Below, one piece after another: positions 18,714 to 45,318 of a stretch of 64,000 nt of DNA. The position numbers and the translations under genes were made by a program. This stretch comes from Archivesica marissinica (taxonomy: Eukaryota; Mollusca; Bivalvia; Venerida; Vesicomyidae): positions 10,099,384-10,163,383 of the forward strand of contig CM026403.1 in assembly GCA_014843695.1 (NCBI GenBank). Reading direction: 5' to 3'. The notes under the pieces are model-generated. The model ran no database searches. It was not told the DNA's origin and worked only from the letters and a program-made list of their open reading frames with translations. How positions within the stretch are numbered: the first letter of the stretch is position 1; the number at the start of each line of letters is the position of its first letter.

Positions 18714-18843
18714 CCTTGTTGTCAGTTGTAGGATCATGTGGCAACGGTCACCTCTTGCAAGCATTGCTCTCCGCTAACCCTTGTTGTCAGTTGTAGGATC
18801 ATGTGGCGACGGTCACTTCTTGCAAGCATTGCTCTCTGCTAAC
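18714..18843. repeat. 65-bp tandem duplication across the stop of exon 7
   Basis: Two 65-bp copies (18714-18778 and 18779-18843), about 94% identical. The right copy holds the last 10 codons of the phosphatidyltransferase gene, its TGA and the start of the 3' UTR. The left copy lies wholly in the 3' UTR. Confidence 0.9.
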
Positions 18844-18875
18844 ATTCCCTTTACATGCTGTTGTATGAAGAATAA
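18813..18875 (-). CDS. Exon 7 (stop codon)
   Basis: Coding part 63 nt from acceptor ttgtgttttcag|tta to TGA at 18813-18815. It encodes a hydrophilic tail, LFFIQQHVKGMLAESNACKK. It is separated from exon 6 by a 7.6-kb intron that is almost all satellite. A lysine-rich C-terminal tail is usual for ER members of this family. Confidence 0.72.
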   Translation of the reverse strand, partial: LFFIQQHVKGMLAESNACKK

Positions 18876-24800: not shown

Positions 24801-27800
24801 GATAACTTCCACTATCCATTGAATAACTTCCACTATCCATTGAATAACTTCCACTATCCATTGGATAACTTCCACTATCCATTGGATAACTTCCACTATC
24901 CATTGAATAACTTCCACATTGAATAACTTCCACTATCCCACTATCCATTGAATAACTTCCACTATCCATTGAATAACTTCCACTATCCATTGGATAACTT
25001 CCACTATCCATTGAATAACTTCCACTATCCATTGGATAACTTCCACTATCCATTGAATAACTTCCACTATCCATTGGATAACTTCCACTATCCATTGAAT
25101 AACTTCCACTATCCATTGAATAACTTCCACTATCCATTGGATAACTTCCACTATCCATTGAATAACTTCCACTATCCATTGGATAACTTCCACTATCCAT
25201 TGAATAACTTCCACTATCCATTGGATAACTTCCACTATCCATTGAATAACTTCCACTATCCATTGGATAACTTCCACTATCCATTGAATAACTTCCACTA
25301 TCCATTGGATAACTTCCACTATCCATTGGATAACTTCCACTATCCCACTATCCATTGGATAACTTCCACTATCCATTGAATAACTTCCACTATCCATTGG
25401 ATAACTTCCACTATCCATTGAATAACTTCCACTATCCATTGGATAACTTCCACTATCCATTGAATAACTTCCACTATCCATTGGATAACTTCCACTATCC
25501 ATTGAATAACTTCCACTATCCATTGGATAACTTCCACTATCCATTGAATAACTTCCACTATCCATTGGATAACTTCCACTATCCATTGAATAACTTCCAC
25601 TATCCATTGAATAACTTCCACTATCCATTGGATAACTTCCACTATCCATTGAATAACTTCCACTATCCATTGGATAACTTCCACTATCCATTGGATAACT
25701 TCCACTATCCATTGAATAACTTCCACTATCCATTGGATAACTTCCACTATCCATTGGATAACTTCCACTATCCATTGGATAACTTCCACTATCCATTGAA
25801 TAACTTCCACTATCCATTGGATAACTTCCACTATCCCACTATCCATTGGATAACTTCCACTATCCATTGAATAACTTCCACTATCCATTGGATAACTTCC
25901 ACTATCCATTGGATAACTTCCACTATCCATTGGATAACTTCCACTATCCATTGGATAACTTCCACTATCCATTGAATAACTTCCACTATCCATTGGATAA
26001 CTTCCACTATCCATTGGATAACTTCCACTATCCATTGAATAACTTCCACTATCCATTGAATAACTTCCACTATCCATTGGATAACTTCCACTATCCCACT
26101 ATCCATTGGATAACTTCCACTATCCATTGGATAACTTCCACTATAATTTCCACTATCCATTGGATAACTTCCACTATCCCACTATCCATTGCGGGGACCT
26201 AGACATGTTTTCCTGGGAGGCTTAGCCGACCTAAGCGATTAACCAGTACTAAGCGATGTGTGTGAGGTGCCTTGCTCAATGACACTACACGTGGCCTGAC
26301 CGAGCATCGAACCCGGGACAGTTCGATTCCAAATCCGACGCTCTACCACTGGACCACGGACGCCACAATTAATTAATTGATTAACCAGGGTGTGACGTTT
26401 AATAAACGTATCAACAACAAAAAAGAAACATATGCAAAACTAAACATACTCTACTTGGTGATAAATTACCTCTGTACTAAGTGCCAACAGTCTACCGCCA
26501 ATAAGAAACACCAGTAAACTGTACTGGGCTGCAGAAGACAGGTGTATATAGGTCAAAAACTCGGACTCTATACCATATATCCACAAAGGTAACACAAATA
26601 TGCCTGTAATAGCATACGTTCCAATGGGGGTTTTGAAACCTGAAATGTGTAATAAATGTCATTCATTTGTTTGTCCATAAAGCTCTACGCACTCAACAAA
26701 AATCCTAATCTGTCACCTTGTGTTTTATGTTATGTTATTATATTATGTTATATTTCTGGTTTTACGCCTGCATCAGCACCATTTTGGGCTATATTGCTGG
26801 CAGGCAGTTTACCTAACAACACCTTTCCTGGGCAGGCTCCAACGGTTAACCAGTACTTGGGTGCACCAACCTCCGTAAGAAACTGCCAACTTTTTCATAT
26901 ACATGAGACACGGTCTGAGCGGGCCTCGAACCCGTGACCATCAGTGATGATAGGTTACAGTGGTATACAAGTCGGCGACCTTATTAACCTCTCGACCACG
27001 GAGGCGGACTCCTCGTGTTTTATAATATTTGGAGCAAACTAATAATCATACAATATAAATACAGTCAAACCTGTCTATAAAGGCCACCCTTGGGAAAGTC
27101 AAAAAATGGCCTTTGTTGGCAGGTGGCCTCTCAATAGAGGGTTAAAATGCATTGAAAATGGCTCAACGGGAGAGAAATATGGTGGTCTTTAGAGACAGGT
27201 TTTTCATATGTGGCCTTTATTCGGAGGTGGCCTTTAGCACAGGTTTGACTGTATGTTCATATGGTCACTTAATGCATTTGATTCCAGATGATTATACAGC
27301 AATTCATTGCATAAAGATATGTAATGTAATGCATCAAATAAGATGATTGCTCCAAATTATGGCTGTAGAGGTGAACTGGTTAGTTTATACAAATTTATTT
27401 TAGCTCAATTGCGAAACAAGTTCTTACAACTTATATTAACCCATTTCATTCTGGATACATTTAAAGGCTTTTGCAAACAACATAGATCCAGATCAGCCGC
27501 AGCATGACGCTGCGTGCTGATCAGGATCTATGTTGTTTGCTACATAGCCAAGTGTCTTAGCAACATCATCTGAATAGCAAACAGCATAGAGCCTGATCAA
27601 ACGGCACGTTTCGTGGCGGTTGTTCTGGCTCTATGTTCTTTGCAATTTGAACGGTATCCAGAATGAAATGGGTTAATCACTCTCGAGACCTCATTCCTGA
27701 TGGAATCCATCGCCACGAGGGAGAGAGAAGAGGCAGCGTAGAAATTAAATGCCTTGTCTAAGGGCACAATCGTAACGGCTCCAGCGGGGCTCGATCTCCG

Positions 27801-30800
27801 GACCTTTTGCACATGAAGCGAATACTGCGCTATCACGACTTCCAGGTGAACTAGTTAATATACAAAAACATTCATAGATATTTATCAGCAACAAACCACA
27901 CACCGTTAGCCATCACTAGTTTACATATGACTGGGAATTCGTCGTCCGCAATTTTCCAGGCAGATCCTCGCGAATGTGTGCACACAAATGTCAGCCATTC
28001 TACCATCATCACAAAATATCCCCACTGCAAAATATCATATACACATACAGGCATACACTATGCATCTTAATGCAACAAATGATTCCTACTGTGAAGAGAT
28101 AATCAAACGAAACATGACAGTTACTTCAAGTGATAAAGTTTTGATGTACCAACTTATCACAGTAACGATTATGTATTGTAACGGGTTACACAGAGTGATT
28201 GATGTCAATATAAGTTTTAAAGTATAAAAGTATACGTGTCATTAATATACAACATCTGAATCCTTAGTCGTGCATTGGAAATATTTTATTTTCTCTATGG
28301 CTAATTAGTTTAAACATATTTTATTTCCCAATATAATACATATTGAACAATGCATACATCACAAAATGCAGAAAAAGGATTAGAATGAAAGACAGAGTCT
28401 TATATAATTCTTCTCCTCTACGGCTAATTAGACATACAGTCTACAACCGTTATATCAAAGTCGGTTATGTCGAATTCTCCGGTTATCTCGGTTCTCGGAT
28501 CAAAGTCCCGTTTCAGACACTATCATTGTACATATAACTGGCTTCATTTGTATCGAATTCCGTTACGTCAAATTTCGGTTATGTTGAAGTATTTTGTTCG
28601 GTCGGACGGAATTCGACATAACGGATGTAGACTGTAGTGGAGCCTCTGTGGTGTAATTTGATACGGTGACTGCCTTGTAACCGAGAGTTTGTGAGTTTGA
28701 GCCCCGTCGGAACCACGGTGGTACCACTTCTCTCTTCCTAATGGCGATGGATTCCACCAGGACATGAGGTCTCTCTCTCGATTAATCCAAAATCTTGCTT
28801 CGCAATCAAGATAAAATTAATTTGTATAAAAAATTACTACATGCTGACACAAAATGCAACAAGGGACATATTTATAAAATTTATAATAAGACATACATTC
28901 TTTTCAACCTTCAGCAGATCTTTATCAGGCAAATTTATATAATGTGCTAAATTACTGAAAATGTTTGTCCACAAATGATACCGTGCAAACAGTGGTGTTT
29001 TTCATTAAAGTACAGCCACCTCCGACCTGTCATACCAAGGACTGTAGATTACTAACCTTTGAGATGAGGCACCACAGGGCACCTCCGACCTGCCTTCCAA
29101 GAACTGTAGATTACTAACCTTTGAGATGAGGCACCACAGTGCACCTCTACTGATCTGCCTTCCAAGAACTGTACATTACTAACCTTTGAGATGAGGCACC
29201 ACAGGGCACCTCTACTGATTTACCTTCCAAGAACTGTAGATTACTAACCTTTGAGATGAGGCACCACAGCGCACCCCCGACCTGCCTTACCAAGAACTGT
29301 ACATTACTAACCTTTGAGATGAGGCACCACAGGGCACCTCCAACCTGCCTTACCAAGAACTGTACATTACTAACCTTTGAGATGAGGCACCACAGGGCAC
29401 CTCCAACCTGCCTTACCAAGAACTGTACATTACTAACCTTTGAGATGAGGCACCACAGGGCACCCCCGACCTGCCTTACCAAGAACTGTAGATTACTAAC
29501 CTTTGAGATGAAGCACCACAGGGCACCTCCGACCTGCCTTACCAAGAACTGTAGATTACTAACCTTTGAGATGAGGCACCACAGCGCACCTCTACTGATC
29601 TGCCTTCCAAGAACTGTAGATTACTAACCTTTGAGATGAGGCACCACAGCGCACCTCTACTGACCTGCCTTACCAAGAACTGTAGATTACTAACCTTTGA
29701 GATGAGGCACCACAGGGCACCTCCGACCTGCCTTACCAAGAACTGTAGATTACTAACCTTTGAGATGAGGCCCCACAGGACACCTCTACTGATCTGCCTT
29801 ACCAAGAACTGTAGATTACTAACCTTTGAGATGAAGCACCACAGGGCACCTCTACTGATCTGCCTTCCAAGAACTGTAGATTACTAACCTTTGAGATGAG
29901 GCACCACAGGACACCTCTACTGATCTACCTTCCAAGAACTGTAGATTACTAACCTTTGAGATGAGGCACCACAGGGCACCTCTACTGATCTGCCTTCCAA
30001 GAACTGTAGATTACTAACCTTTGAGATGAGGCACCACAGGACACCTCTACTGATCTGCCTTACCAAGAACTGTAGATTACTAACCTTTGAGATGAAGCAC
30101 CACATGGCACCTCCGACCTGCCTACCAAGAACTGTAGATTACTAACCTTTGAGATGAAGCACCACAGGGCACCTCTAATGACCTGCCTTCCAAGAACTGT
30201 AGATTACTAACCTTTGAGATGAAACACCACAGGGCACCTCCGACCTGCCTTACCAAGAACTGTAGATTACTAACCTTGAGATGAAGCACCACAGGGCACC
30301 TCTACTGACCTGCCTTACCAAGAACTGTAGATTACTAACCTTGAGATGAAGCACCACAGGGCACCTCTACTGACCTGCCTTACCAAGAACTGTAGATTAC
30401 TAACCTTTGAGATGAAACACCACAGGGCACCTCCGACCTGCCTTACCAAGAACTGTAGATTACTAACCTTTGAGATCAGGCACCACAGGGCACCTCTACT
30501 GATCTGCCTTCCAAGAACTGTAGATTACTAACCTTTGAGATGAAGCACCACAGGACACCTCTACTGATCTGCCTTCCAAGAACTGTAGATTACTAACCTT
30601 TGAGATGAGGCACCACAGTGCACCTCTACTGATCTGCCTTCCAAGAACTGTACATTACTAACCTTTGAGATGAGGCACCACAGGGCACCTCTACTGATCT
30701 ACCTTCCAAGAACTGTAGATTACTAACCTTTGAGATGAGGCACCACAGCGCACCCCCGACCTGCCTTACCAAGAACTGTACATTACTAACCTTTGAGATG

Positions 30801-33800
30801 AGGCACCACAGGGCACCTCCAACCTGCCTTACCAAGAACTGTACATTACTAACCTTTGAGATGAGGCACCACAGGGCACCTCCAACCTGCCTTACCAAGA
30901 ACTGTACATTACTAACCTTTGAGATGAGGCACCACAGGGCACCTCCGACCTGCCTTACCAAGAACTGTAGATTACTAACCTTTAAGATGAGGCATCACAG
31001 CGCACCCCCGACCTGCCTTACCAAGAACTGTAGATTACTAACCTTTGAGATGAAGCACCACAGGGCACCTCCGACCTGCCTTACCAAGAACTGTAGATTA
31101 CTAACCTTTGAGATGAGGCACCACCAACCTGCCTTCCAAGAACTGTAGATTACTAACCTTTGAGATGAGGCACCACAGCGCACCTCTACTGACCTGCCTT
31201 ACCAAGAACTGTAGATTACTAACCTTTGAGATGAGGCACCACAGCGCACCTCCGACCTGCCTTACCAAGAACTGTAGATTACTAACCTTTGAGATGAGGC
31301 ACCACAGGGCACCTCCTGACCTGCCTTACCAAGAACTGTAGATTACTAACCTTTGAGATGAGGCACCACAGGACACCTCTACTGATCTGCCTTACCAAGA
31401 ACTGTAGATTACTAACCTTTGAGATGAAGCACCACAGGGCACCTCTACTGATCTGCCTTCCAAGAACTGTAGATTACTAACCTTTGAGATGAGGCCCCAC
31501 AGGACACCTCTACTGACCTGCCTTACCAAGAACTGTAGATTACTAACCTTTGAGATGAGGCACCACAGGACACCTCTACTGATCTGCCTTACCAAGAACT
31601 GTAGATTACTAACCTTTGAGATGAAGCACCACATGGCACCTCCGACCTGCCTACCAAGAACTGTAGATTACTAACCTTTGAGATGAAGCACCACAGGGCA
31701 CCTCTAATGACCTGCCTTCCAAGAACTGTAGATTACTAACCTTTGAGATGAAACACCACAGGGCACCTCCGACCTGCCTTACCAAGAACTGTAGATTACT
31801 AACCTTGAGATGAAGCACCACAGGGCACCTCTACTGACCTGCCTTACCAAGAACTGTAGATTACTAACCTTGAGATGAAGCACCACAGGGCACCTCTACT
31901 GACCTGCCTACCAAGAACTGTAGATTACTAACCTTTGAGATGAAACACCACAGGGCACCTCCGACCTGCCTTACCAAGAACTGTAGATTACTAACCTTTG
32001 AGATCAGGCACCACAGGGCACCTCTACTGATCTGCCTTCCAAGAACTGTAGATTACTAACCTTTGAGATGAAGCACCACAGGACACCTCTACTGATCTGC
32101 CTTCCAAGAACTGTAGATTACTAACCTTTGAGATGAAGCACCACAGGGCACCTCTACTGATCTGCCTTCCAAGAACTGTAGATTACTAACCTTTGAGATG
32201 AAGCACCACAGGACACCTCTACTGATCTGCCTTCCAAGAACTGTAGATTACTAACCTTTGAGATGAAGCACCACAGGGCACCTCTACTGATTAGATCTAT
32301 GAGCACATCAAACTGTAATAATCAAATCATAATTGTTTGTGCATTGAGATAGTGCTGGGAATTAATTAGTGGGTGTGGGGTGGGGGGAGATTGAGTATGA
32401 GGGGAATTAAAGATGATTTGAGAATACAGATGTATTGCCACATAGCTGTATCATACATTGTACATATATCTGCCAAATGTGTGAGATAACACAACAGTCA
32501 ATCCTTTGTACCACATAAACAGTATACAACACCTTTATCGCTTCCAACATATAACTGATGCTTCCATGGCAACATCTCACCAGATATATTGAGAAAGTAG
32601 TGCAGTGTGCCTACTGCTTAGGCAAAATGGAGATAAAATGGGTATTTCTGTTGTGGAATAAAGGGCTAAATTATTCTGCCAATAAGATGTACATCCCAGG
32701 CATATGCATAAGATTCTAAATTGGAATATAGAAATAACTTTGTGTTCATGTATGCAAGGACGATGGATACAGCAGACAGGTCACAATAGTTCTCACTTTG
32801 TGTTCATGTATGCATGGACGATGGATACAGCAGACATGTCACAATAGTTCTCACTTTGTGTTCATGTATGCACGGACGATGGATACAGCAGACACGTCAC
32901 AATAGTTCTCACTTTGTGTTCATGTATGCACGGACGATGGATACAGCAGACACGTCACAATAGCTCTCACTTTGTGTTCATGTATGCATGGACGATGGAT
33001 ACAGCAGACAGGTCACAATAGTTCTCACTTTGTGTTCATGTATGCATGGACGATGGATACAGCAGACATGTCACAATAGTTCTCACTTTGTGTTCATGTA
33101 TGCACGGACGATGGATACAGCAGACACGTCACAATAGCTCTCACTTTGTGTTCATGTATGCATGGACGATGGATACAGCAGACACGTCACAATAGTTCTC
33201 ACTTTGTGTTCATGTATGCATGGACGATGGATACAGACACGTAACAATAGTTCTCACTTTGTGTTCATGTATGCATGGACGATGGATACAGCAGACACGT
33301 CACAATAGTTCTCACTTTGTGTTCATGTATGCACGGACGATGGATACAGCAGACACGTCACAATAGCTCTCACTTTGTGTTCATGTATGCACGGACGATG
33401 GATACAGCAGACATGCCACAATAGCTCTCACTTTGTGTTCATGTATGCATGGACGATGGATACAGCAGACATGCCACAATAGTTCTCACTTTGTGTTCAT
33501 GTATGCACGGACGATGGATACACATACGTCACAATAGTTCTCACTTTGTGTTCATGTATGCACGGACGATGGATACAGCAGACACGTCACAATAGTTCTC
33601 ACTTTGTGTTCATGTATGCATGGACGATGGATACAGCAGACACGTCACAATAGTTCTCACTTTGTGTTCATGTATGCATGGACGATGGATACAGACACGT
33701 CACAATAGTTCTCACTTTGTGTTCATGTATGCACGGACGATGGATACAGCAGACACGTCACAATAGTTCTCACTTTGTGTTCATGTATGCATGGACGATG

Positions 33801-36800
33801 GATACAGCAGACACGTCACAATAGTTCTCACTTTGTGTTCATGTATGCATGGACGATGGATACAGCAGACACGTCACAATAGCTCTCACTTTGTGTTCAT
33901 GTATGTACGGACGATGGATACAGACACGTCACAATAGCTCTCACTTTGTGTTCATGTATGCACGGACGATGGATACAGACACGTAACAATAGGTCTCACT
34001 TTGTGTTCATGTATGCACGGACGATGGATACAGACACGTAACAATAGTTCTCACTTTGTGTTCATGTATGCCTGGACGATGGATACAGACACGTAACAAT
34101 AGTTCTCACTTTGTGTTCATGTATGCATGGACGATGGATACAGACACGTAACAATAGTTCTCACTTTGTGTTCATGTATGCACGGACGATGGATACAGAC
34201 ACGTAACAATAGTTCTCACTTTGTGTTCATGTATGCATGGACGATGGATACAGACACGTCACAATAGCTCTCACTTTGTGTTCATGTATGCACGGACGAT
34301 GGATACAGCAGACACGCCACAATAGCTCTCACTTTGTGTTCATGTATGCACGGACGATGGATACAGCAGACACGCCACAATAGCTCTCACTTTGTGTTCA
34401 TGTATGTATGGACGATGGATACAGACACATCACAATAGTTCTCACTTTGTGTTCATGTATGCATGGACGATGGATACAGCAGACACGTCACAATAGCTCT
34501 CACTTTGTGTTCATGTATGCATGGACGATGGATACAGCAGACACGCCACAATAGCTCTCACTTTGTGTTCATGTATGTACGGACGATGGATACAGACACG
34601 TCACAATAGCTCTCACTTTGTGTTCATGTATGCCTGGACGATGGATACAGACACGTCACAATAGCTCTCACTTTGTGTTCATGTATGCACGGACGATGGA
34701 TACAGACACGCCACAATAGTTCTCACTTTGTGTTCATGTATGCACGGACGATGGATACAGCAGACACGTCACAATAGTTCTCACTTTGTGTTCATGTATG
34801 CATGGACGATGGATACAGACACGCCACAATAGCTCTCACTTTGTGTTCATGTATGCACGGACGATGGATACAGCAGACACGTAACAATAGCTCTCACTTT
34901 GTGTTCATGTATGCATGGACGATGGATACAGCAGACACGTCACAATAGTTCTCACTTTGTGTTCATGTATGCACGGACGATGGATACAGACACGTCACAA
35001 TAGCTCTCACTTTGTGTTCATGTATGCATGGACGATGGATACAGACACGTCACAATAGTTCTCACTTTGTGTTCATGTATGCACGGACGATGGATACAGC
35101 AGACACGTCACAATAGTTCTCACTTTGTGTTCATGTATGCATGGACGATGGATACAGCAGATAGGTCACAATAGTTCTCACTTTGTGTTCATGTATGCAT
35201 GGACGACGAACACAGTTAGTATACAATAGATCTTGTGTTCTGACGACAGGACAACAGACAACCAACACACATTATCCCAGAAAACTCACCCAGGCACCGA
35301 ATGCAGAGGTCTGATTCAGCTTCCTGGCCAGAATCCCATCCAAACCTGAAATAGTTTATACATATTTATATTAGCTCGATTGCGAAACAAGTTATTACAA
35401 CTTATATTAATCAGACCTCATTCTTGATGGAATCTATCGCCACGAGGGAGAGAGAAGAGGCAACGTGGAATTTAAATGCCTTGCCTAAGGGCACAATCGT
35501 AATGGCTCCAGTCGGGTTCGAACTCCGGGCCTTTCGCACCTGAAGCGAACACGCTACCACTACACTATCACGACAAACCTGATATACACATGTATAGTTA
35601 GGTACGATAAGGACAACCTAATTTTGGACAACTGCTTTTAGTTAATTAACTCCTTGCATGCTAGCGGTGAATCTTCTCCCCTCTATTGTCTCCCCTCTCT
35701 CTATACTCTCCCCTCTGTCTATCTTCTCCCCTCTCTCTCTATATTCTCCTCTCTCTCTATTTTCTCCCCTCTCTCTATATTCTCCCCTCTCTCTATATTC
35801 TCCCCCTCTCTCTCTATCTATTCTCCCCTCTCTCTATATTCTCCCCTCTCTATATTCTCCCCTCTCTCTCTATATTCTCCCCTCTCCCCTCTCCCCTCTC
35901 TCTATCTTCACCCCTCTCTATCTTCTCCCCTCTGTCTATCTTCTCCCCTCTATAGTCTCCCCTCTCTATTTTCTCCCCTCTCCCTATCTTCTCCCCTCTC
36001 TCTATATTCTCCCCTCTCTCTATTTTCTCCCTCACTCACTCCCTCTTCTCAATCTCCCTTCCACTCTCTCTCTCCCTCCTTCCTATCTCTCTCTCCATTT
36101 TACGAGACTAAAACTATAAGACTGTTTTCAATTGATTCAAATTCAAGTATCAATTGCGATTTAAACATGACTAAAGATACAAACCATCTAATGCCACTGA
36201 TACTCCATACAAGACAAGGAAGGCTAGAGGATGACTGTATACACTCAAACTGGCCGCGAGTAAGCTAAGGCGCACATATCCTGAAAGTACACAAAATACA
36301 TCTATAAAACTGGCCACAAGTAAGCCAAGGTGCACATATCCTGAAATTACACAAAATACATCTATAAAACTGGCCACAGGTAAACCAAGGTGCACATATC
36401 CTGAAAGTACACACAATACATCTATAAAACTGGCCACAGGTAAGCCAAGGTGCACATATCCTGAAAGTACACAAAATACATCTATAAAACTGGCCACAAG
36501 TAAGCCAAGGTGGACATATCCTGAAAGTACACAAAATACATCTATAAAACTGGCCACAGGTAAACCAAGGTGCACATATCCTGAAATTACACAAAATACA
36601 GCTATATAACTGGCCACAGGTAAGCCAAGGTGCACATATCCTGAAATTACACAAAATACATCTATAAAACTGGCCACAGGTAAGCCAAGGTGCACATATC
36701 CTGAAAGTACACAAAATACATCAATAAAACTGGCCACAGGTAAGCCAAGGTGCACATATCCTGAAAGTACACAAAATACATCAATAAAACTGGCCACAGG

Positions 36801-38560
36801 TAAGCCAAGGTGCAAATATCCTGAAAGTACACAAAATACATCAATAAAACCGGCCACAGGTAAGCCAAGGTGCACATATCCTGAAATGAGGTAAGGATGG
36901 TAGCAATGCGGGTTGACAGTTCTTTCAATACTCTCCGATTGACACTATCTTGACCTTCAGATTTGTGAGAATCCAGAGAACTTGTGTGTCTTTGGTGTAA
37001 ACTGACTGGGACTGAGAGTTGAGGATGTGGGTCTAAATGGAAACTGAGAGATGAGGATGTGGGTTTGAATGGGAACTGAGAGATGAGGATGTGGGTTTAA
37101 ATAGAAACTGAGAGATGAGGATGTGGGTCTGAATCTAGGGCCAACAGCTAACGACCTTGACTCCCAAGTCTGTCATCTTATGTTTAATGATGGTCCATGT
37201 ATGGCCAATCAGTGTGCGTGAGCTTCTTCTATTATATAGTATAATGATACTATAGATGGAACAGATGGAACAGGCTTCAGAACGTTGGACCAATTTTAGT
37301 TTATAGATAAGTTCTTTCTGCCAGGCATTTCAGGCTTCAACTTCATACTGTCGAACAATCAGTTATGATTGGCAGGTGCAGTCTATGTATGTTCCTTTAA
37401 AGTCAAACCCCTCGCAGGGACTTTTCCTGGGCAGGCTTAGCCGACCTAAGCGATTAACCAGTACTAAGCAATTTGTGTGAGGTGCCTTGCTCAATGACAC
37501 TACATACGTGTCCTGACCGAGTATCGAACCCAGGACCGTTCGATTCCAAATCCGACGCTCTACCACTGGACCACGGACGCCAACAGTTAGTTAATCTAAA
37601 ATGTTACGTGTAAGTTAAAAAGATGATTTAGTTAAAAGCAGACAGTACAAGGATTAGAGAGTCGGCAGACTGGGACTCGTCTGTATATATGTCGGTAGAC
37701 TGTTCCATATTTTACGCTGTTGGTTCCATAGCCTGATTGTTCTTGGGAAAAATGAGTTGAAATGGTATTCGGGACTGTGTGATTAGATAGTTACGGTTTC
37801 TTGTGGGTGTAAGGTGGAGGGTTTCTTTTCCTATGGATTCTTAATATTTCACATTTATCAGGGTTGATTTCCGTTGACCATTCCTTTTCCCAATATTCTA
37901 AGAGGTGTAGGTCATGTTGTAGAGCTTCTGCTGAGGACTGGTATTTGATGGTGAGGTAGACGATGGTGAGGTAGACGATGGTGAGGTAGACGATGGTGAG
38001 GTAGATGGTGAGGTAGACGATGATGAGGTAGACGATGGTGAGGTAGACGATGATGAGGTAGACGATGATGAGGTAGACGATGGTGAGGTAGACGATGATG
38101 AGGTAGACGATGGTAAGGTAGACGATGGTGAGGTAGACGATGATGAGGTAGATGATGGTGAGGTAGACAATGGTGAGGCTGTTGAGCAGTGTGCACTATT
38201 CAACCTGTGGAAGGACGTTTATATCTATAAGTGATGTAAGCAGATTCTTTGATCCGTTTGTTCTTGGTTTTGACATTCCTTTTGATGAAGCAGAGGGTAT
38301 GAGGCAGATATTATTACCTTTTGATGTGCTATTATATACGGGGTTTTTCTTGAAAATGGCGACGTATAGGTATTTGGAATGTCATATTGTATTATGAATT
38401 TATCAGGTTAATGTTTCTTTTCCTGCGAATTCTTAGTTCACATTATTAGGGTGGGAATTCCATGAACTATGTCAGTCAATGCCATTGGCTACAGGGACCA
38501 TGTCTAAATAGATTACTTACCAATTATATTTGGAACATAAAGTAATATTTCATTGCCCAT
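18813..38560 (-). CDS. CDP-alcohol phosphatidyltransferase, PI-synthase type, 7 exons
   Basis: Joined CDS (minus): 38560-38521, 36280-36185, 35345-35290, 32312-32256, 28024-27904, 26639-26470, 18875-18813. This is 603 nt, 200 residues plus TGA. All introns are GT-AG and every junction phase matches. The N-terminus has YVPNIIGYVR, as in phosphatidylinositol synthases (F-VPNLIGYAR). The full family signature is present: D45-x2-D48-G49-x2-A52-R53-x8-G62-x3-D66-x3-D70, which binds the metal and the CDP-alcohol. Several hydrophobic segments follow, for example around residues 125-145 and 160-178. The length is close to the ~213 residues of animal PI synthase. The expected role is an integral ER membrane enzyme joining a CDP-activated lipid to an alcohol head group. 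LNQ near the signature favours inositol, but substrate is inference. Introns are mostly satellites. Confidence 0.85.
18951..19440. repeat. 24-bp minisatellite in intron 6
   Basis: About 20 copies of a 24-bp unit (tactatgtactagttagtgtg plus taa), with g/a variation in the tgtg/tatg position. It abuts the 21-bp array directly. Confidence 0.96.
19443..26190. repeat. 6.7-kb 21-bp satellite in intron 6
   Basis: More than 300 copies of a 21-bp unit, ttgRataacttccactatcc plus a, where R (g or a) is almost the only variable base. Blocks are separated by a junction form, ctatcccactatcc, about every 50-900 bp. Order of g and a units is shared between blocks, for example the ~895-bp segment repeated at 23.9-24.5 and 24.8-25.3 kb. 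Many frames on both strands are open (MDSGSYP-type, NFHYPLD-type), but these are translated repeat inside an intron. Confidence 0.98.
26191..26365 (-). mobile_element. SINE-C copy 1
   Basis: On the minus strand the tRNA-like head has box A tggtccagtgg and box B gggttcgatgc. The body follows with cattgagcaaggcacctcac and cagtactggttaatcgctta. It abuts the 21-bp satellite, which ends at the SINE's 3' side. Confidence 0.88.
26470..26639 (-). CDS. Exon 6
   Basis: 170 nt, acceptor acatttcag|gt, donor cagag|gtaatt, ending in phase 0. It encodes two hydrophobic segments (TPIGTYAITGIFVLPLWIYG and QYSLLVFLIGGRLLAL), matching the last transmembrane helices of the family. Confidence 0.82.
26752..27010 (-). 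mobile_element. SINE-D copy 1, in intron 5
   Basis: Minus-strand tRNA-like head with box A (tggtcgagagg-like) and box B gggttcgaggcccg. The body contains gaaactgccaactttt and tggttaaccgttggagcc in complement orientation. It lies about 110 bp upstream of exon 6. Open frames over it (26656-26937) are artefacts. Confidence 0.87.
27060..27253. mobile_element. TA-flanked MITE, CAGT-type termini, copy 1
   Basis: A 194-bp element with perfect terminal repeats tacagtcaaacctgt and acaggtttgactgta, flanked by TA. The interior has repeated aaaggccacc and aaatggcctttg-like segments. TA targets and CAGT ends are typical of Tc1/mariner-derived MITEs. Confidence 0.88.
27383..27843 (-). mobile_element. SINE-A interrupted by a TTAA MITE
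   Basis: SINE-A (minus) flanked by aggtgaactggtta (27369-27382) and aggtgaactagtta (27844-27857), a 14-bp duplication with one mismatch. The body is split at its natural TTAA by the element at 27436-27676. Confidence 0.9.
27436..27676. mobile_element. TTAA MITE nested in SINE-A (family T2)
   Basis: A 241-bp element with perfect 22-bp terminal inverted repeats starting ttaacccatttcattctgg, duplicating the TTAA of the SINE tail (tatattaatcact). It contains two consecutive hairpins, each with catagatcc/ggatctatg-type arms. No coding capacity. Its ends differ in sequence from family T1 but share the ttaaccc/gggttaa termini. Confidence 0.93.
27904..28024 (-). CDS. Exon 5
   Basis: 121 nt, acceptor gatattttgcag|tgg, donor aacg|gtgtgt (phase 1). 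It begins WGYFVMMVEWLTF, a hydrophobic segment, followed by the polar stretch CTHSRGSAWKIADDEF. Reading past the donor reaches a stop at 27872, which can look like a terminal exon. The exact phase match to exon 6 argues against that. Confidence 0.78.
28025..28434. other. Intron 4 unique sequence
   Basis: About 400 bp between exon 5 and the next MITE with no further exon or repeat recognised. Confidence 0.5.
28435..28636. mobile_element. TA-flanked MITE (tacagtctaca termini)
   Basis: A 202-bp element with inverted ends tacagtctacaaccgttat and ataacggatgtagactgta, followed inwards by gttatgtcgaattc on one side and gaattcgacataac on the other. TA is present at both ends. It is non-coding. Confidence 0.82.
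28637..28830 (+). mobile_element. Divergent SINE-A-like element
   Basis: The head has tggtgtaatttg (box A-like) and gagtttgagcccc (box B-like). The body retains atggcgatggattccaccag and the tail cttgcttcgcaatcaag. It begins exactly where the neighbouring MITE ends. Confidence 0.7.
29026..32255. repeat. 63-66-bp array grown from the exon 4 donor
   Basis: About 50 units. On the minus strand each unit is cagtagaggtgccctgtgg, then tgcctcatctcaaag|gttagt, then aatctacagttcttgg and (t)aaggcag. The first part equals the last ~36 nt of exon 4 (32256-32312) and the rest equals the start of intron 4, so each unit carries a copy of the exon 4 5' splice site. Unit lengths are 63, 65 and 66 bp. A ~1.5-kb higher-order segment is present twice, with shared markers at 30101/31630 and 30271/31800. 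Open frames of the KVSNLQFL kind are repeat translations. Confidence 0.95.
32256..32312 (-). CDS. Exon 4 (D-x3-D catalytic motif)
   Basis: 57 nt, phase 0 at both ends, acceptor attattacag|ttt, donor aaag|gttagt. It encodes FDVLIDLISRGALWCFISK, which places the last two aspartates of the signature at the expected distance from exon 3. Its 3' half and donor are the seed of the adjoining 63-66-bp array. Confidence 0.88.
32313..32737. other. Intron 3 unique sequence
   Basis: About 425 bp between exon 4 and the 58-bp array. It holds a short open frame discussed under rejected items, and nothing else was recognised. Confidence 0.5.
32738..35215. repeat. 58/55-bp minisatellite in intron 3
   Basis: About 43 copies of a 58-bp unit (atgtatgcatggacgatgg, atacagcagacacgtcac, aatagttctcactttgtgtt). 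A 55-bp form has lost gca from cagcagac. It ends about 70 bp beyond the exon 3 donor but shows no similarity to exons 3 or 4. Confidence 0.97.
35290..35345 (-). CDS. Exon 3 (DG-x2-AR catalytic motif)
   Basis: 56 nt, acceptor atttcag|gt, donor tgg|gtgagt. It encodes LDGILARKLNQTSAFGAW, containing D-G-x2-A-R-x8-G. A SINE-A copy begins immediately upstream in the gene's direction and duplicated the acceptor. Confidence 0.9.
35354..35574 (-). mobile_element. SINE-A inserted at the exon 3 acceptor
   Basis: Complete SINE-A on the minus strand, with box A tagtgtagtgg and box B-like gagttcgaaccc. Target duplication is aaacctgaaata (35342-35353) and aaacctgatata (35575-35586). The left copy contains the exon 3 3' splice site and the first bases of the exon. 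Confidence 0.93.
35675..36095. repeat. CT-rich low-complexity repeat in intron 2
   Basis: Irregular ctatattctcccctctctct units of about 18-20 bp. Open frames on both strands are compositional. Strand asymmetry puts polypurine in the transcript. Confidence 0.95.
36185..36280 (-). CDS. Exon 2 (minimal form)
   Basis: 96 nt from acceptor ctttcag|ga to donor g|gtttgt. It encodes the rest of the first hydrophobic segment and ends ...SVALD, supplying the first aspartate of the signature. The first ~32 nt and the acceptor itself are repeated ten more times upstream (36284-36885). The proximal acceptor is the minimal choice. The far acceptor at 36881 has the best polypyrimidine tract, and using it would extend the exon in frame by 600 nt. 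Confidence 0.8.
36284..36885. repeat. 60-bp array grown from the exon 2 acceptor
   Basis: Ten exact-length 60-bp units. On the minus strand each is ctttcag|gatatgtgcacc, then ttggcttacctgtggccag, then ttttattgatgtattttgtg. The first ~32 nt after the ag match the start of exon 2. Candidate acceptors recur at 36281, 36341 and every 60 bp to 36881. The whole array is open in the frame of exon 2, encoding a 20-residue hydrophobic repeat (GYVHLGLPVASFIDVFCVLS). Confidence 0.95.
37015..37137. repeat. 32-bp repeat, 4 copies
   Basis: Four units of aaactgagagatgaggatg plus tgggtttgaatgg in intron 1. Confidence 0.88.
37399..37582 (-). mobile_element. SINE-C copy 2, in intron 1
   Basis: Same family as 26191-26365, here with the 3' tail agtcaaacccctcgcaggga. 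The head on the minus strand has tggtccagtgg and gggttcgatactcgg. Confidence 0.88.
37945..38175. repeat. 15-bp minisatellite (gatggtgaggtagac)
   Basis: About 15 copies of gatggtgaggtagac with gatgatgag variants, in intron 1. The minus-strand Ser/Thr/Pro- and His/Leu/Pro-rich frames across it are repeat translations. The flank 38176-38520 is unique intron sequence with no recognised feature. Confidence 0.95.
38521..38560 (-). CDS. Exon 1 (start codon)
   Basis: 40 nt: ATG and 13 codons ending in a single G (phase 1) at the donor g|gtaagt. It encodes MGNEILLYVPNIIG with the first base of the last codon. The VPN-IGY motif at the cytosolic start of the first membrane helix is typical of PI synthases. 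The reading frame stays open upstream, so the start is chosen by family length. Confidence 0.75.
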
Positions 38561-38584
38561 AATTGCATAACTCCCCCGTTTGAT

Positions 38585-38592
38585 TATTTATA
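38585..38592 (-). promoter_or_regulatory. TATA-like box near the exon 1 start
   Basis: TATAAATA on the minus strand 25-32 nt before the exon 1 ATG. This would leave almost no 5' UTR if it were the true TATA box, so it may be chance. Confidence 0.2.
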
Positions 38593-38598
38593 TTTCAG

Positions 38599-38611
38599 TG
38601 ACCTTTGACCT
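38599..38611 (-). promoter_or_regulatory. Perfect DR1 nuclear-receptor element
   Basis: AGGTCAAAGGTCA on the minus strand about 40 bp upstream of the exon 1 ATG: two perfect AGGTCA half-sites with one spacer base. This is the type bound by RXR heterodimers and HNF4. A related tgtcaaaggtgg lies just upstream. Position near the start of a lipid-synthesis gene makes a regulatory role plausible. Confidence 0.45.
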
Positions 38612-38978
38612 CCCACCTTTGACATCCACAAAACCTAAGATTGTTATCTCCCTTTAATGTTCTTTAGTGGATGCATTTCCCCCACGATAATTTTGTGATT
38701 TTGCACGGGTTTTGTTATACAAACAAGTGAGTTTGGACAGATCAACTTATACTTTAATATTTCGAGAGATGTGAGTGGTTGTCAGTGAAATTGAAGTTTG
38801 TTCTGTGGCATTTATATCCATTTGTCATATGTTTTCGTGACATGATTTTATTTGTTAAGCCTTCACTTAAGGTCAGTATCTATGACTATATTTTGTTATA
38901 GTCCACTTATTTAGACTTGAAAAATGTGACATTTTGCTATCAAAGCTCGAAATAACATATCGAATTCGAAAAAAAATA

Positions 38979-40490
38979 TATACCGAGTCAAAAAAGAAAC
39001 AATACCAAACTAAAAATGACGTAAAACGGATAAAACCATAGAAAGGTTTAATATATTATTACGTATCAGTACCGGGTATCGTATTGCAATGTCAGCCAAC
39101 CATAAACACAGGTAAATAAACACCCGATAATCCTGGAACGCCGAATTTCCGATTTGCACATGCTCCTCAACAAAGACAACTTCCTGCACATGTACAAATC
39201 GGAAAACCGGTTTATTGTACTGGTATTGCATTATCATCGAGGAAAAACACCTTACATACCCATTGTTACCTCTAACAAAATGCCTAGGCTAAACCGCAAT
39301 CAGAGAATGCGTGCCATTGGCATGATTGACGGCGGTTTACGTCAGCGTGACGTCGCAAATCAAGGGGGGGGTACGCGGATCACGATAACACATCTACTTT
39401 GACATTATCGAACACATAGATCGGTGGACGACCGTCCAAGATCTGGTCGACCACGTGTGACGACGCGTGAACAGGACCGTCACATTCGGACGTCACATTT
39501 ACGTGACCAGTTCCTACCTGCTACGCACACAGCTGCCGTTACTCCTGGGATGACCAACAATCGCATCAGTGCACAAACAGTCAGGAACTGGCTCGATGAA
39601 CGTGGCATTCGTGCCTATCGGCCATACGTTGGACCCATCCTGACACGACGTCACCGTGACGTACGGCGGGAATGGACGACGGAACGTGCTCGCTGGACTC
39701 GGTTACAGTGGAATTCGGTGATGTTTAGCGATGAATCGCGGTTCTGTTTGCGTCAAGCGGATGGCAGAGAGCGGGTATATCGCAGACGCGGTGAACGTTA
39801 CGCCGACGCATGTGTACGTCGGGTCGATCTGTTCGGGGGCGTAAGCGTTATGGCGTGGGGCGGTATCACCTTCGGCAGTCGCACTGAACTGTTAGTGGTG
39901 GACGGGAACCTAAACGCCCAGCGGTACTGTGATGAGATCCTTGCACCAGTTGTTGTGCCGTTCTTTAACGCCAACAGAAACGTCACACTGTTCCAACAGG
40001 ACAACGCCAGGTGTCATACTGCTCGGATTTCCACTACATTATTGGAGCAGAACAATATTGAAACCCTGCCGTGGCCTGCTTTGTCACCAGACTTGTCATC
40101 CATAGAACATTTGTGGGATACGTTAGACCGCCACGTCAGCCGGTAACGTTAAACCAACTGAGGGATGTTTTGCGTCAGGAGTGGACAAATATTGACCAGC
40201 AAGAGATTCAGACACTCTTCCGTTCGATGCGACGGCGGTGCATTGCAGTGAGAGACGCAAATGGTGCCCATACTCGGTATTGACGTCTGTGTGAAAACTC
40301 CATTAGACCCCTGTCCGACGAATTACGTCATCACGCAGCAGACAGTTTCGGAGGCTCATTATGCTGTATGTGCTCCTCTTTCAAACATGTTGGACTATCA
40401 TCTTATGAATTTTCAAAGAATTTTCTTAATAAATGTTGAAATTATAGACACATAAACACCAGGTATCGTTTCTTTTTTGACTCAGTATAT
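38979..40490 (+). mobile_element. Tc1-like DNA transposon, decayed
   Basis: About 1.5 kb. Terminal inverted repeats of about 28 bp match except at two positions (left end gagtcaaaaaagaaacaata at 38985; right end cgtttcttttttgactc to 40483), with TA/AT-rich flanks. It contains a DD34E transposase reading frame broken by two frameshifts. Confidence 0.92.
39280..40283 (+). pseudogene. Tc1-family transposase pseudogene
   Basis: Three collinear segments in different frames: 39280 to about 39370 (MPRLNRNQRMRAIGMI..., helix-turn-helix start), 39424-40143 (DDRPRSGRPRVTT linker and catalytic core) and about 40140-40283 (C-terminal RRRCIAVRDANGAHTRY). The catalytic triad is visible: D in MFSDESRF, D in FQQDNARCHTA, E in SIEHLWD. 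There are 34 residues between the last two, the DD34E spacing of Tc1. The first break lies at a run of eight G at about 39364-39371 and the second just after LDRHVSR near 40141. The element is therefore not autonomous, though the core is intact enough to suggest recent activity. Confidence 0.9.
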
Positions 40491-41545
40491 ATAGAGGTCT
40501 TATATATAGGACTATATTTCGTTACTGCCTCTATCGTTTACGACAATGACTTGAAAAATGTGACATTTTACTATCCAAGCATTTTTCAAAGTCTAAACGC
40601 TAAACCTCAATTACGCGTACCATATTTTATATTCTAAAAAGTCATTTTTTATAAATTAAAATTGTTAACAAGATCAACACACATACCGTTGTTTGAATTC
40701 TGCACAGTCTATTACGTCTTTTGACACAATAGTATACATGATATCAACGTTTAAATTTCATGGCAGAGTTTCGCCATTCCAAATCGGCCATTTTGAATAT
40801 TAGATTATTGCGAAAAACAAAAATAGAGGTCGAAATAGTCAAAAATGTTTACAAGATTTATCTCCGTGCCATTACGGTGAACCAAATAAGATACGTTTAA
40901 TATCCAATTGTTCATATGCATGAAATGTACTTAGAAATAATAAATCATTCGGATTTCTTTTGTGAAGACTGCGCAGAAAAAATGGGAGAATTTCACCTGT
41001 CGACTTCAAACAGCTAAATGACATGCACATCGGTAATACAATATATTTTTAACGTTCTTAATATCTATATTTAGGATTATTCTTAACATCAATGTACACA
41101 TTTATAACAGTTCATCTGTTCATGTCCGAAAAGCTTCAAAATATTGGTCAGAAAATCCCGCCATCGGATCAGGGCGGAAAGTGCTATGCGAAAATGAGCT
41201 TTAACGATAAGACCTCGAAATAACAGGAAAAAATAGGCCTTATTTATAGGACTAGCACTGCTATTGAATTGACCATAGCCTAGGCCTCCATTATAACATC
41301 AGACATTCAGTCCCATTATATTTTCCCCAAAAATAGATTGCCACAAAAAATGTTTGTTTCAACAGACTTGATTTGAAAACGGACTCATTGACATATCATG
41401 CTACCCATAGAGCTCGCCTTTCTATCTATCTTCCTCTAATGTCAAACCCCTCGCGGGTCGAAAGATTCGTGAAATGAGTTTCACCTCTATACCCTATCAA
41501 TGACAAATGATAAATGGTGATGTATAAGAAAGTTGCCAGGCACTT
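40491..41545. other. Unique A/T-rich region, no gene recognised
   Basis: No exon-like open frame with splice sites was found. It holds the right-hand copy of a ~25-bp motif also found left of the transposon (see findings) and a short SINE-C tail-like piece (gtcaaacccctcgcggg) near 41441. Confidence 0.5.
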
Positions 41546-41640
41546 AAGGAGGTTGGAGAGTTGAGGAGGTTGGAGAGTTGGAGGTTGGAGAGTTAAGGAG
41601 GTTGGAGAGTTGAGGAGGTTGGAGAGTTGAGTACTGGTTC
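41546..41640. repeat. 17-bp repeat (aggaggttggagagttg)
   Basis: About five copies, some missing a few bases. One further copy with flanking gtacttgttcttaccc occurs at about 41780-41810, indicating a ~200-bp local duplication. 41811-42042 is unique with nothing recognised. Confidence 0.85.
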
Positions 41641-42042
41641 TTACCTAGTCCTATATATATGAGACAACTGAGAGAACCGCTGTGGCCTATATCGCCTTTC
41701 ACCGCTATCATCAGGACTGCAGTATGCTCCCTATCAGTGATTAATGATGATATGTGAGAATGGTGTCAATCCCTTAAAGAGGTTGGAGAGTTGAGTACTT
41801 GTTCTTACCCAGGAAATGCAGATGGTCTACTCTCCGCCACAACATTCTTTTTTTATATATTTATTTTATTTTTAAAAAACACTTTCAGTCAATTGTTTCG
41901 TTAAGAAAATTGGTCCAATATTCTGAAGCCCATTCCATCTCGGTACAGGTAAATACATCTGTTAACGATAACAATATTTTAATGATTACAACTACATCAT
42001 GCAATATTGTATCATTATACTATATAATAGAAGCTTTTTTGA

Positions 42043-42337
42043 AAACTTTATTTTACAACGATTGCGAAGCAAGTTTTAGCAACTTATATTAATCACTCTC
42101 ATTGGCGCGGATGAAAGCGTAAATGTGGTCATTCGTGTGGGAGGAAACCGGAGTACCCGGAGAAAACCCACCTGTCCGATCTGGTGACCATCATACCATC
42201 TCACATCCTTCCCGGTCCGAGGATCGAACCCGGGTTGCATTGGTGTGAAGCGAGCGCGCACACACATTTACGCGCCAATGAGAGTGATTAATACAAGTTG
42301 TTAAAACTTGCTTCGCAATCGTTATAAAATAAAGTTT
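42043..42337. mobile_element. SINE-B with a foldback second tail
   Basis: A minus-strand SINE-B (42043 to about 42252; head box B gggttcgatcctcgg in complement) is followed by a second copy of its 3' 67 bp in the opposite orientation (42271-42337). The arms 42043-42109 and 42271-42337 form an inverted repeat. Confidence 0.85.
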
Positions 42338-42612
42338 AAACTTTAAAATATTCCAATTTGCAGCTGATGTATTATAATTTATGGTTTTTTTTATTTCACT
42401 TTCACTATTGTCGACAAAATCTGCTCAGCCAATTGCTCAACGATCAAGCTCGTTATTCATTTCAAATTTGGCCGAAATGCTTACGCATAGATCTATGTAT
42501 TATAATTAATCGTATTTGGTTGTCCTTTAGTATTATTTATTTTAGAAATATGATTGCTATGCTCACAAAACTAATTAAAATATCACCGTAAAATGTTTCT
42601 TGTTTATGTGAG
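42338..42612. other. A/T-rich spacer
   Basis: Nothing recognised. The 77-codon frame at 42358-42591 has no splice context or known domain. Confidence 0.5.
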
Positions 42613-42710
42613 TACAGTAACACGTCTTTAGCAGCCAGTGAAGGGATTTAGTTATTTAGCTAAGCAGCCGTGATTTCCTTGGCTGGCTGCTTAAGACAGG
42701 TTTGACTGTA
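42613..42710. mobile_element. Short TA-flanked MITE, copy 2
   Basis: 98 bp. The right end acaggtttgactgta matches copy 1 exactly; the left end tacagtaacacgtc is degraded. The interior has agcagcc and ggctggctgctta in opposite orientation, a near-hairpin. Confidence 0.75.
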
Positions 42711-42805
42711 CTACCAACATAAATGCCTAGTTTTGTACTTCCCCTTGTGAACAATCATATAAGAAATTATTACTGTAACTAAGTGCACAAATGCACTGAT
42801 TTTGG

Positions 42806-45318
42806 TTGATGGCAAACCTCATCGATTGCAATTATAACAACCCTTATTGATTGCAATTGTAACCAACCTTATTGATTGCAATTGTAGAAAACCTCATTGA
42901 TTGCAATTGTCACAAACCTCATCGATTGCAATTGTAGCAACCCTTATTGATTGCAATTGTAACCAACCTCATTGATTGCAATTATAACCAACCTCATCGA
43001 TTGCAATTGTAGCAACCCTTATTGGTTGCAATTTTAACAAACCTCATTGATTGCAATTGTAGCAACCCTTATTGATTGCAATTGTAACAAACCTCATTGA
43101 TTGCAGTTGTGACAAACCTCATTGATTGCAGTTGTGACAAACCTCATTGATTGCAATTGTAACAAACCTTATTGATTGCAATTGTAACAAACCTTAATGA
43201 TTGTCATAGTAACTAACACACCTTAATGATTGCCATAGCAACAAACCTTAATGATGGCCATAGTAACAAACTTTAATGATTGCCATAGTAACACACCTAA
43301 ATGATTGCCATAATAACAAACCTTAATGATAGCCATAGTAACAAACCTTAATGATGGCCATAGTAACAGACCTAAATGATTGCCATAGTAACAAACCTAA
43401 ATGATTGCTATAGTAACACACCTAAATGATTGCCATAGTAACACACCTAAATGAGTGCCATAGTGACAAACCTAAATGATTGCCATAGCAACACACCTAA
43501 ATGATAGCCATAGTAACAAACCTAAATGATTGCCATAGTAACACACCTAAATGATTGCCATAGTAACACACCTAAATGATTGCCATAGTAACACACCTAA
43601 ATGATTGCCATAGTAACAAACCTTAATGATGACCATAGTAACACACCTAAATGATTGCCATAGTAACAGACCTAAATGATTGTCATAGTAACAAACCTAA
43701 ATGATTGCAATAGTAACAAACCTAAATGATTGCCATAGTAACAAACCTTAATGATGACCATAGCAACACACCTTAATGATTGCCATAGCAACAAACCTTA
43801 ATGATGGCCATAGTAACAAACCTTAATGATTGCCATAGTAACTAACACACCTTAATGATTGCCATAGTAACTAACACACCTAAATTGCCATATCAACAGA
43901 CCTTAATGATTGCCATAGTAACACACCTAAATGATTGCCATAGTAACACACCTAAATGATGGCCATAGTAACAAACCCTATTGATTGTCATAGTAACAAA
44001 CCTTAATGATGACCATAGCAACTAACACACCTTAATGATGGCCATAGTAACATACCTTAATGATGGCCATAGTAGCACATCTTAATGATTGCCATAGTAA
44101 CAAACCTTAATAATGGCCATAGTAACAAACCTTAATGATGGCCAAAGTAACACATCTTAATGATTGCCATAGCAACAAACCTTAATGATGGCCATAGTAA
44201 CAAACCTAAATGATTGCCATAGTAACTAACACACCTTAATGATGGCCATAGTAACACACCTTAATGATGGCCATAGTAGCACATCTTAATGATTGCCATA
44301 GTAACAAACCTTAATGATGGCCATAGTAACAAACCTTAATGATGGCCAAAGTAACACATCTTAATGATTGCCATAGCAACAAACCTTAATGATGGCCATA
44401 GTAACAAACCTAAATGATTGCCATAGTAACTAACACACCTTAATGATTTCCATAGCAACACACCTTAATGATTGCCATAGTAACAAACCTAAATGATTGC
44501 CATATTAACACATCTTAATGATTGCCATATTAACAAACATTAATGATTGCCATAGTAACACATCTTAATGATTGCCATATTAACAAACCTTAATGATTGC
44601 CATATTAACAAACCTTAATGATTGCCATAGTAACAAACCTTAATGATTGCCATAGTAACACACCTAAATGATTGCCATAGTAACACACCTAAATGATGGC
44701 CATAGTAACAAACCTTATTGATTGTAATAGTAACAAACCTAAATGATTGCCATAGTTACACCTCTAAATGATTGCCATAGTAACATACCTAAATGAGTGT
44801 TATAGTAACACACCTAAATGATTGCCATAGCAACACACCTAAATGATGGCCATAGTAACAAACCTAAATGATGGCCATAGTAACAAACCTTATTGATTGT
44901 CATAGTAACACACCTTAATGATTGTCATAGTAACAAACCTAAATGATTGCCATAGTAGCAGACCTAAATGATTGCTATAGTAACAAACCTAAATGATGGC
45001 CATATTAACAAACCTTAATGATTGCCATAGTAACAAACCTTAATGATTGCCATAGTAACAGACCTAAATGATTGCCATAGCAACAAACCTAAATGATTGC
45101 CATAGTAACACACCTTAATGATGGCCATAGTAACAAACCTAAATGATTATCTTAGTAACAAACCTTAATGATTGCCATAGCAACTAACACACCTTAATGA
45201 TTGCCATAGCAACAAACCTTAATGATGGCCATAGTAACAGACCTAAATGATTGCCATAGTAACACACATTAAAGATTGTAATGGTAACATAAACAAGCCT
45301 TAATGATTGACATGGTAA
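42806..45318. repeat. 25-bp minisatellite in two sub-families
   Basis: About 100 copies. The first ~390 bp use cattgattgcaattgtaacaa acct; from about 43195 the unit is taatgattgccatagtaaca aacct. A 29-bp form with actaacacac is scattered. The switch between sub-families is abrupt. Confidence 0.96.

Follow-up and report, generated by a model that had tools for sequence, protein, structure and literature searches.

A mirage-like array of splice acceptors ahead of exon 2 in a CDP-alcohol phosphatidyltransferase gene of the clam Archivesica marissinica

How does a gene keep making its protein when the acceptor of one of its exons stands eleven times in a row? This question is raised by a 64,000-nucleotide stretch of the Archivesica marissinica genome (hereafter, the window; C18:10099384-10163383 in an assembly of 1.54 Gb), in which a minisatellite built from an intron-exon junction lies directly ahead of exon 2 of a lipid enzyme gene. 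The array may be part of that exon, as a sequence-only reading of the locus had proposed in suggesting a tunable, length-variable insert in the enzyme. Alternatively, it may belong to intron 1 and leave the protein untouched. We consider it very probable that the array is a mirage in intron 1, a structure of the kind known from amphioxus, that it is mostly spliced out through the exon-proximal acceptor at 36281 with the ordinary enzyme being made, and that it is one instance of a genome-wide habit.

The host gene has seven exons on the minus strand, which were placed by eye first and then with the homologues of Mercenaria and Ruditapes, the nearest named ones (82% and 79%, respectively). Exon 1 (38521..38560) encodes MGNEILLYVPNIIG, ends in phase 1 and is followed by a GTAAGT donor; exon 2 proper (36185..36280) encodes YVRLSLLAAS...VALDG between the acceptor at 36281 and a GTTTGT donor. 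Exon 3 (35290..35345) contributes LDGILARKLNQTSAFGAW, exon 4 (32256..32312; first donor GTTAGT) FDVLIDLISRGALWCFISK, exon 5 (27904..28024) WGYFVMMVEWLTF...VMANG, exon 6 (26470..26639) FKTPIGTYAITG...ALSTE, and the coding part of exon 7 (18813..18875) LFFIQQHVKGMLAESNACKK and then a stop. The catalytic motif DGLDGILARKLNQTSAFGAWFDVLID is intact across exons 2-4 and follows the pattern DGxxAR...GxxxDxxxD, and a 64-aa query, one residue of which was wrong, matched Pfam family PF01066 (E 4.6e-10, 40.5 bits against a cut-off of 22). The predicted product is a CDP-alcohol phosphatidyltransferase of that family, in agreement with the sequence-only reading. The same 64-aa piece gave no convincing match in a PDB sequence search. 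A model of the Mercenaria homologue (mean pLDDT 95.6) contains a predicted helix spanning residues 9-26, and its top PDB folds are PS synthase, PGP synthase and PIP synthase (TM up to 0.58), weak matches among which no Foldseek E-value was ≤0.001 and the best was 0.016. Elsewhere in this region, elements at about 35580-35440, 37590-37420 and 26370-26220 (minus strand) look SINE-like and, as we take it from their appearance, tRNA-derived, and a 247-codon open frame at 39403-40146 (plus strand) resembles a Tc1/mariner-type transposase.

The array itself is highly regular. TRF reports a 60-bp repeat at 36247-36886 with 10.7 copies, 95% matches and zero indels, which on the minus strand resolves into ten units of exactly 60 bp running from 36880 to 36281 (36281..36880). 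Units differ from their consensus by one to three substitutions apiece. A unit starts with a 34-nt copy of the exon 2 start, continues with about 20 nt of filler and closes with TTTCAG, and eleven CAG acceptors, all in the same phase, precede exon 2 (36881, 36821, ... 36281). The sequence-only reading had counted the units and acceptors in the same way; it was also right that the units carry a copy of the exon start, although it had put the shared part at ctttcag plus some 32 nt, where we find 34 nt plus TTTCAG.

Formal alignment bears out the similarity between unit and exon. The unit consensus is identical to the exon 2 start at 29 of 34 positions, while the best other match to the exon start in 264 kb of either strand, the two array copies being masked, reaches 20 of 34. 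These values show that the array derives from the gene's own intron 1/exon 2 junction. For the remaining ~20 nt of the unit, there is no counterpart in the unique upstream flank or further into exon 2. TTTCAG is the sole continuous run that the left flank shares with the unit, and the exon similarity ends after about 34 nt, so these ~20 nt come from neither present-day side. A duplication with filler would fit the sequences, as would loss of the original flank. The array has two traits of a mirage in that the unit spans an exon-intron boundary of its host (29/34 plus TTTCAG here, and likewise in a donor array at exon 4, described below) and in that homogenised units (1-3 differences in 60) stand beside a divergent boundary copy (5 in 34).

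Whether the array is coding can be judged from several sides. The frame of exon 2 is open from 36944 to 36171 (257 codons), and extension to the outermost acceptor would add 200 residues, as had been calculated before; translation of the array would yield the YVHLGLPVASFIDVFCVLSG peptide. The openness of the frame stands as an observation but carries little weight, since the consensus unit lacks stops in three of its six frames, and shuffling the bases of a unit leaves one given frame open with a probability of 0.33. Pfam matches of the 257-codon frame to YtiC, SPOB_a and PPR all fell below the curated cut-offs and were taken for chance. The period of 60 is a multiple of 3, whereas those of four donor arrays (65, 94, 113 and 59) are not; because these four give frameshifts or stops at the second site, the in-frame period also looks like chance. 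At the protein level, the acceptor at 36281 yields precisely the conserved NIIG|Y..R junction. No more than two extra residues were found at NIIG|Y in any of 86 aligned homologues, a set restricted to candidates of 0.55-1.75 times 180 aa, so that an enzyme carrying all 200 inserted residues would be missed; the lungfish protein P0064 has five extra residues one position before the junction. A search for the extended-exon protein itself returned none at E ≤10 (241 candidates) in a database of 5.8 billion proteins, from which the source species is seemingly absent, the best homologue there being at 82%.

Residues and substitutions within the units point the same way. When 55 of the 86 homologues are aligned, G14, Y15 and R17 are invariant, and across all 86, position 17 is Arg in 81 and a gap in the other five; it is His in all ten array units. 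The ten variant sites among the units comprise three synonymous and seven non-synonymous changes and no stop, against a neutral expectation of 2.7, 7.0 and 0.33 (ts/tv weight 2). With this 3:7:0 ratio over ten sites and with Arg17 lost, the units show no detectable coding constraint of the sort found in a VNTR exon; their variation looks neutral, and weak constraint would be compatible with only ten sites. In the Mercenaria homologue, the insertion point falls within the helix predicted for residues 9-26, so any insert would be expected to split the presumed first transmembrane helix. The earlier proposal of a tunable transmembrane insert agrees with neither the neutral-looking variants, nor the loss of Arg17, nor this position inside a helix.

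The splice signals, as far as they can be judged from the letters, leave the choice among the eleven acceptors unsettled. The 16-nt tracts of the array acceptors contain 10-11 pyrimidines, as many as or more than those of exons 3-6 (8-10), and a yUnAy adenosine lies at -25 in nine of the ten units and at -41 in all ten. The outermost acceptor, which follows a unique intron tail (36881..36921, minus strand), and whose tract the sequence-only reading had called original-looking, has the best tract of all, with 13 of 16 pyrimidines and no AG for 41 nt upstream; yet no yUnAy adenosine is found from -13 to -50. Preference for the proximal acceptor at 36281 is what we infer from the conservation of the protein and from the published behaviour of like structures, and the array is then probably removed by splicing rather than translated.

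The intron 1/exon 2 junction is not the only one duplicated in this gene. Exon 4 is followed by a donor-junction array (29017..32290, minus strand) of about 51 copies of a ~65-bp unit, each with ~36 nt of the exon's 3' end, the GTTAGT donor and ~29 nt of intron. Exact AAAG|GTTAGT donors number 47, counting exon 4's own, with a few variants besides, and use of the second donor would shift the frame by virtue of the 65-nt period. Where exon 7 passes from its last codons into the 3' UTR, 65 bp are also present as a direct duplication in two copies (18714..18843, minus strand).

Junction arrays recur elsewhere in the genome. A genome search with PF00069 gave at least 131 matches, and from the 131 matches listed we hand-picked 40 kinase exons and read them with their flanks; the first 20 were mostly short stop-free hits and the second 20 longer hits. 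Arrays holding an exon tail and its 5' splice donor were found at three of the 40 (95% interval 1.6-20%), all among the first 20 and none among the second. They belong to a PLK1-like gene (L038; four donors including its own, period 94), an MKK6-like gene (L040; five donors including its own, period 113) and a GRK2/3-like gene (L047; six donors including its own, period 59), and in all three, a frame that ran on past the first donor would hit a stop ahead of the second. Arrays touch six of the first 20 hits, overlapping these three by 30-77 bp and the other three (L035, L036 and L044) by 3-5 bp only. By eye, L036 is a borderline donor array in which a short exon end and its donor occur three times, the arrays of L035 and L044 are confined to the intron side, and at L043 an array begins at the donor and continues in units without one. 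No piling up of arrays at exon edges was found in either set of 20 exons: coverage rises from 17% at 1-30 bp to 34% at 351-700 bp in the first, and from 1% at 1-30 bp to 16% at 251-350 bp in the second. Because arrays are thinner near kinase exons, the capture of junctions by minisatellites looks like spill-over rather than targeting.

The surroundings are rich in such repeats. Tandem arrays with a period of at least 10 make up 59% of the window and, gaps left out, 38% of the next 200 kb. Among 94 minisatellites in 264 kb, donor-like motifs scoring ≥6 occur in 31 against 26.2 (sd 4.3) expected from shuffles, scoring ≥7 in 25 against 14.6 (sd 3.5), scoring ≥8 in 12 against 7.5 (sd 2.7) and scoring ≥9 in 7 against 3.6 (sd 1.6); this excess is at most suggestive of an enrichment, because it uses assumed donor weights, counts motifs on either strand and takes in both arrays of this gene. 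In L022, a 54-bp array of 18 copies (C18 ~10359720-10360692, corresponding to 260337-261309 of the joined stretch), the unit looks like the end of an exon with GTAAGA directly after it. When the assembly is searched at the DNA level, the acceptor array is recovered from this locus and from a second one at a distance of 174 kb. The latter copy occupies a contig of 19.8 kb (C18:10297931-10317746) flanked by two 1000-N gaps, which repeats window positions 26162-44274; exon 7 was not found on it. The copies diverge by two mismatches in ~9.7 kb on one side and by 0.6-0.75% on the other, and we regard the second as a probable unpurged haplotig. The donor array differs between these presumed haplotypes (3274 versus 3190 bp, 47 versus 45 exact donors). 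Since the two assembled copies of the acceptor array are 100% identical, instability of its length is not seen.

These observations suggest the following history. Tandem duplication of a short piece of DNA across the intron 1/exon 2 junction, with ~20 nt of filler, would have come first, and the duplicate would then have been amplified and homogenised into the ten 60-bp units. The spliceosome would mostly pick the exon-proximal acceptor; the ordinary enzyme, some 200 residues long, would be made, and the array would be discarded along with the intron in which it lies. Minisatellites, in which this genome is rich, repeatedly capture splice junctions; exon 4 of this gene and the three kinase genes are the other examples. 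This account is compatible with some leakage, in which 36281 serves in most transcripts and a minority use of array acceptors adds 20n in-frame residues to proteins that mostly misfold and are tolerated as noise. We hold such leakage to be possible, while leaning against it: the eleven same-phase acceptors have comparable signals, the frame is open throughout, and boundary repeats in human can generate alternative splicing (PMC2812944), but amphioxus mirages are described as harmless to splicing (PMC3087553, PMC3902484), and no database protein matches, though the species itself seems to be missing from the database. It is far harder to accept that the extended exon is a default or regulated form carrying a copy-number-tunable hydrophobic insert. 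Its 257-codon frame, the pyrimidine tract of the outermost acceptor and a unit length divisible by 3 would suit that proposal, which we nevertheless judge very unlikely, given that the insert would part Asn11 from Arg17 within the predicted helix, that the unit variants look neutral, and that homologues were found neither with such a junction insert (among candidates of 0.55-1.75 × 180 aa) nor for the extended exon itself; the conserved junction at 36281 tells against it as the default. Equally doubtful is that several of the eleven acceptors are used to give lipid synthases with 0-200 extra hydrophobic residues in transmembrane helix 1, over a range that would depend on how many repeats an allele has.

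Two further readings are more improbable still. An intron could be in the making here, if one unit were to turn into a small exon and the remaining units into an intron, and there are models for this: the potato RdRp intron arose from a boundary-crossing tandem duplication (PMC4974935), and something similar was put forward for the amphioxus mirages (PMC3087553). In the clam, however, the best donor of the unit on the gene strand scores 1.7 against 3.5-8.9 for the six donors of the gene, the strong donor CAGGTAAGC (11.0; assumed weights in each case) sits on the opposite strand, and the conserved protein requires no extra exon, so that this is a scarcely credible alternative. There is likewise only a slim chance that misassembly produced the length of the array or its second copy. 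An identical copy on a short contig between two gaps might raise that suspicion, but the units vary among themselves and the array fits coherently into the gene, and arrays of the same kind occur at unrelated loci.

We therefore return to the mirage as the preferred reading, which matters for several reasons. Mirages have so far been described in amphioxus, and the clam arrays recur, with two in one gene and others at three of 40 kinase exons. Some 51 near-identical donors in a row amount to a natural experiment on how the spliceosome chooses among identical sites, and on how genes such as the PLK1 homologue cope with junction arrays. The arrays also bear on whether splice-junction duplication feeds intron gain; that boundary-crossing duplication can yield introns, and boundary minisatellites splicing changes, is already in print (PMC4974935, PMC2812944).

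How do these arrays compare with known systems? Outside mirages proper, the potato RdRp gene, in which an intron arose when sequence on both sides of the intron 1/exon 2 boundary was duplicated in tandem (PMC4974935; the Rogers model), resembles the clam gene in the boundary duplicated. It differs in that the potato duplication came with a new spliced intron, whereas the clam has a ten-unit array and no sign of one. In human segmental duplications, minisatellites at exon-intron boundaries can alter splicing; these average four 30-bp units and were compared with transcripts, as against ten 60-bp units here (PMC2812944). Among molluscs, no recognisable mirage turned up in the open-access literature searched; an abalone gene has an intronic minisatellite and Conus introns have simple repeats, neither of which is a boundary repeat as far as the available descriptions go.

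The closest parallel is with amphioxus, whose mirages are tandem repeats that resemble minisatellites, contain an intron-exon boundary and may flank an exon on either side (PMC3087553, PMC3902484). In Branchiostoma, they are reported from Adh3, the globins BflGb6 and BflGb9, troponin C and PGBD5 (PMC3087553, PMC3902484), the last with 60- and 108-bp cases (PMC3902484). The BflGb6 mirage, like the clam array, repeats the 3' end of an intron and the 5' part of exon 2, with six and three units in two haplotypes (PMC3087553), against 11 acceptors and ~51 donors in the clam gene. RT-PCR suggests regular splicing of BflGb6 (PMC3087553), and the Adh and troponin C mirages are said to duplicate splice sites without aberrant mRNAs (PMC3902484); the amphioxus globins thus had RT-PCR, whereas the clam arrays are known from DNA. 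Unlike the amphioxus cases, the array studied here has a bivalve host and a 60-bp period that keeps the frame. Taken together, the clam arrays fit best beside the amphioxus mirages, as what appear to be their counterparts in a bivalve at high copy number.
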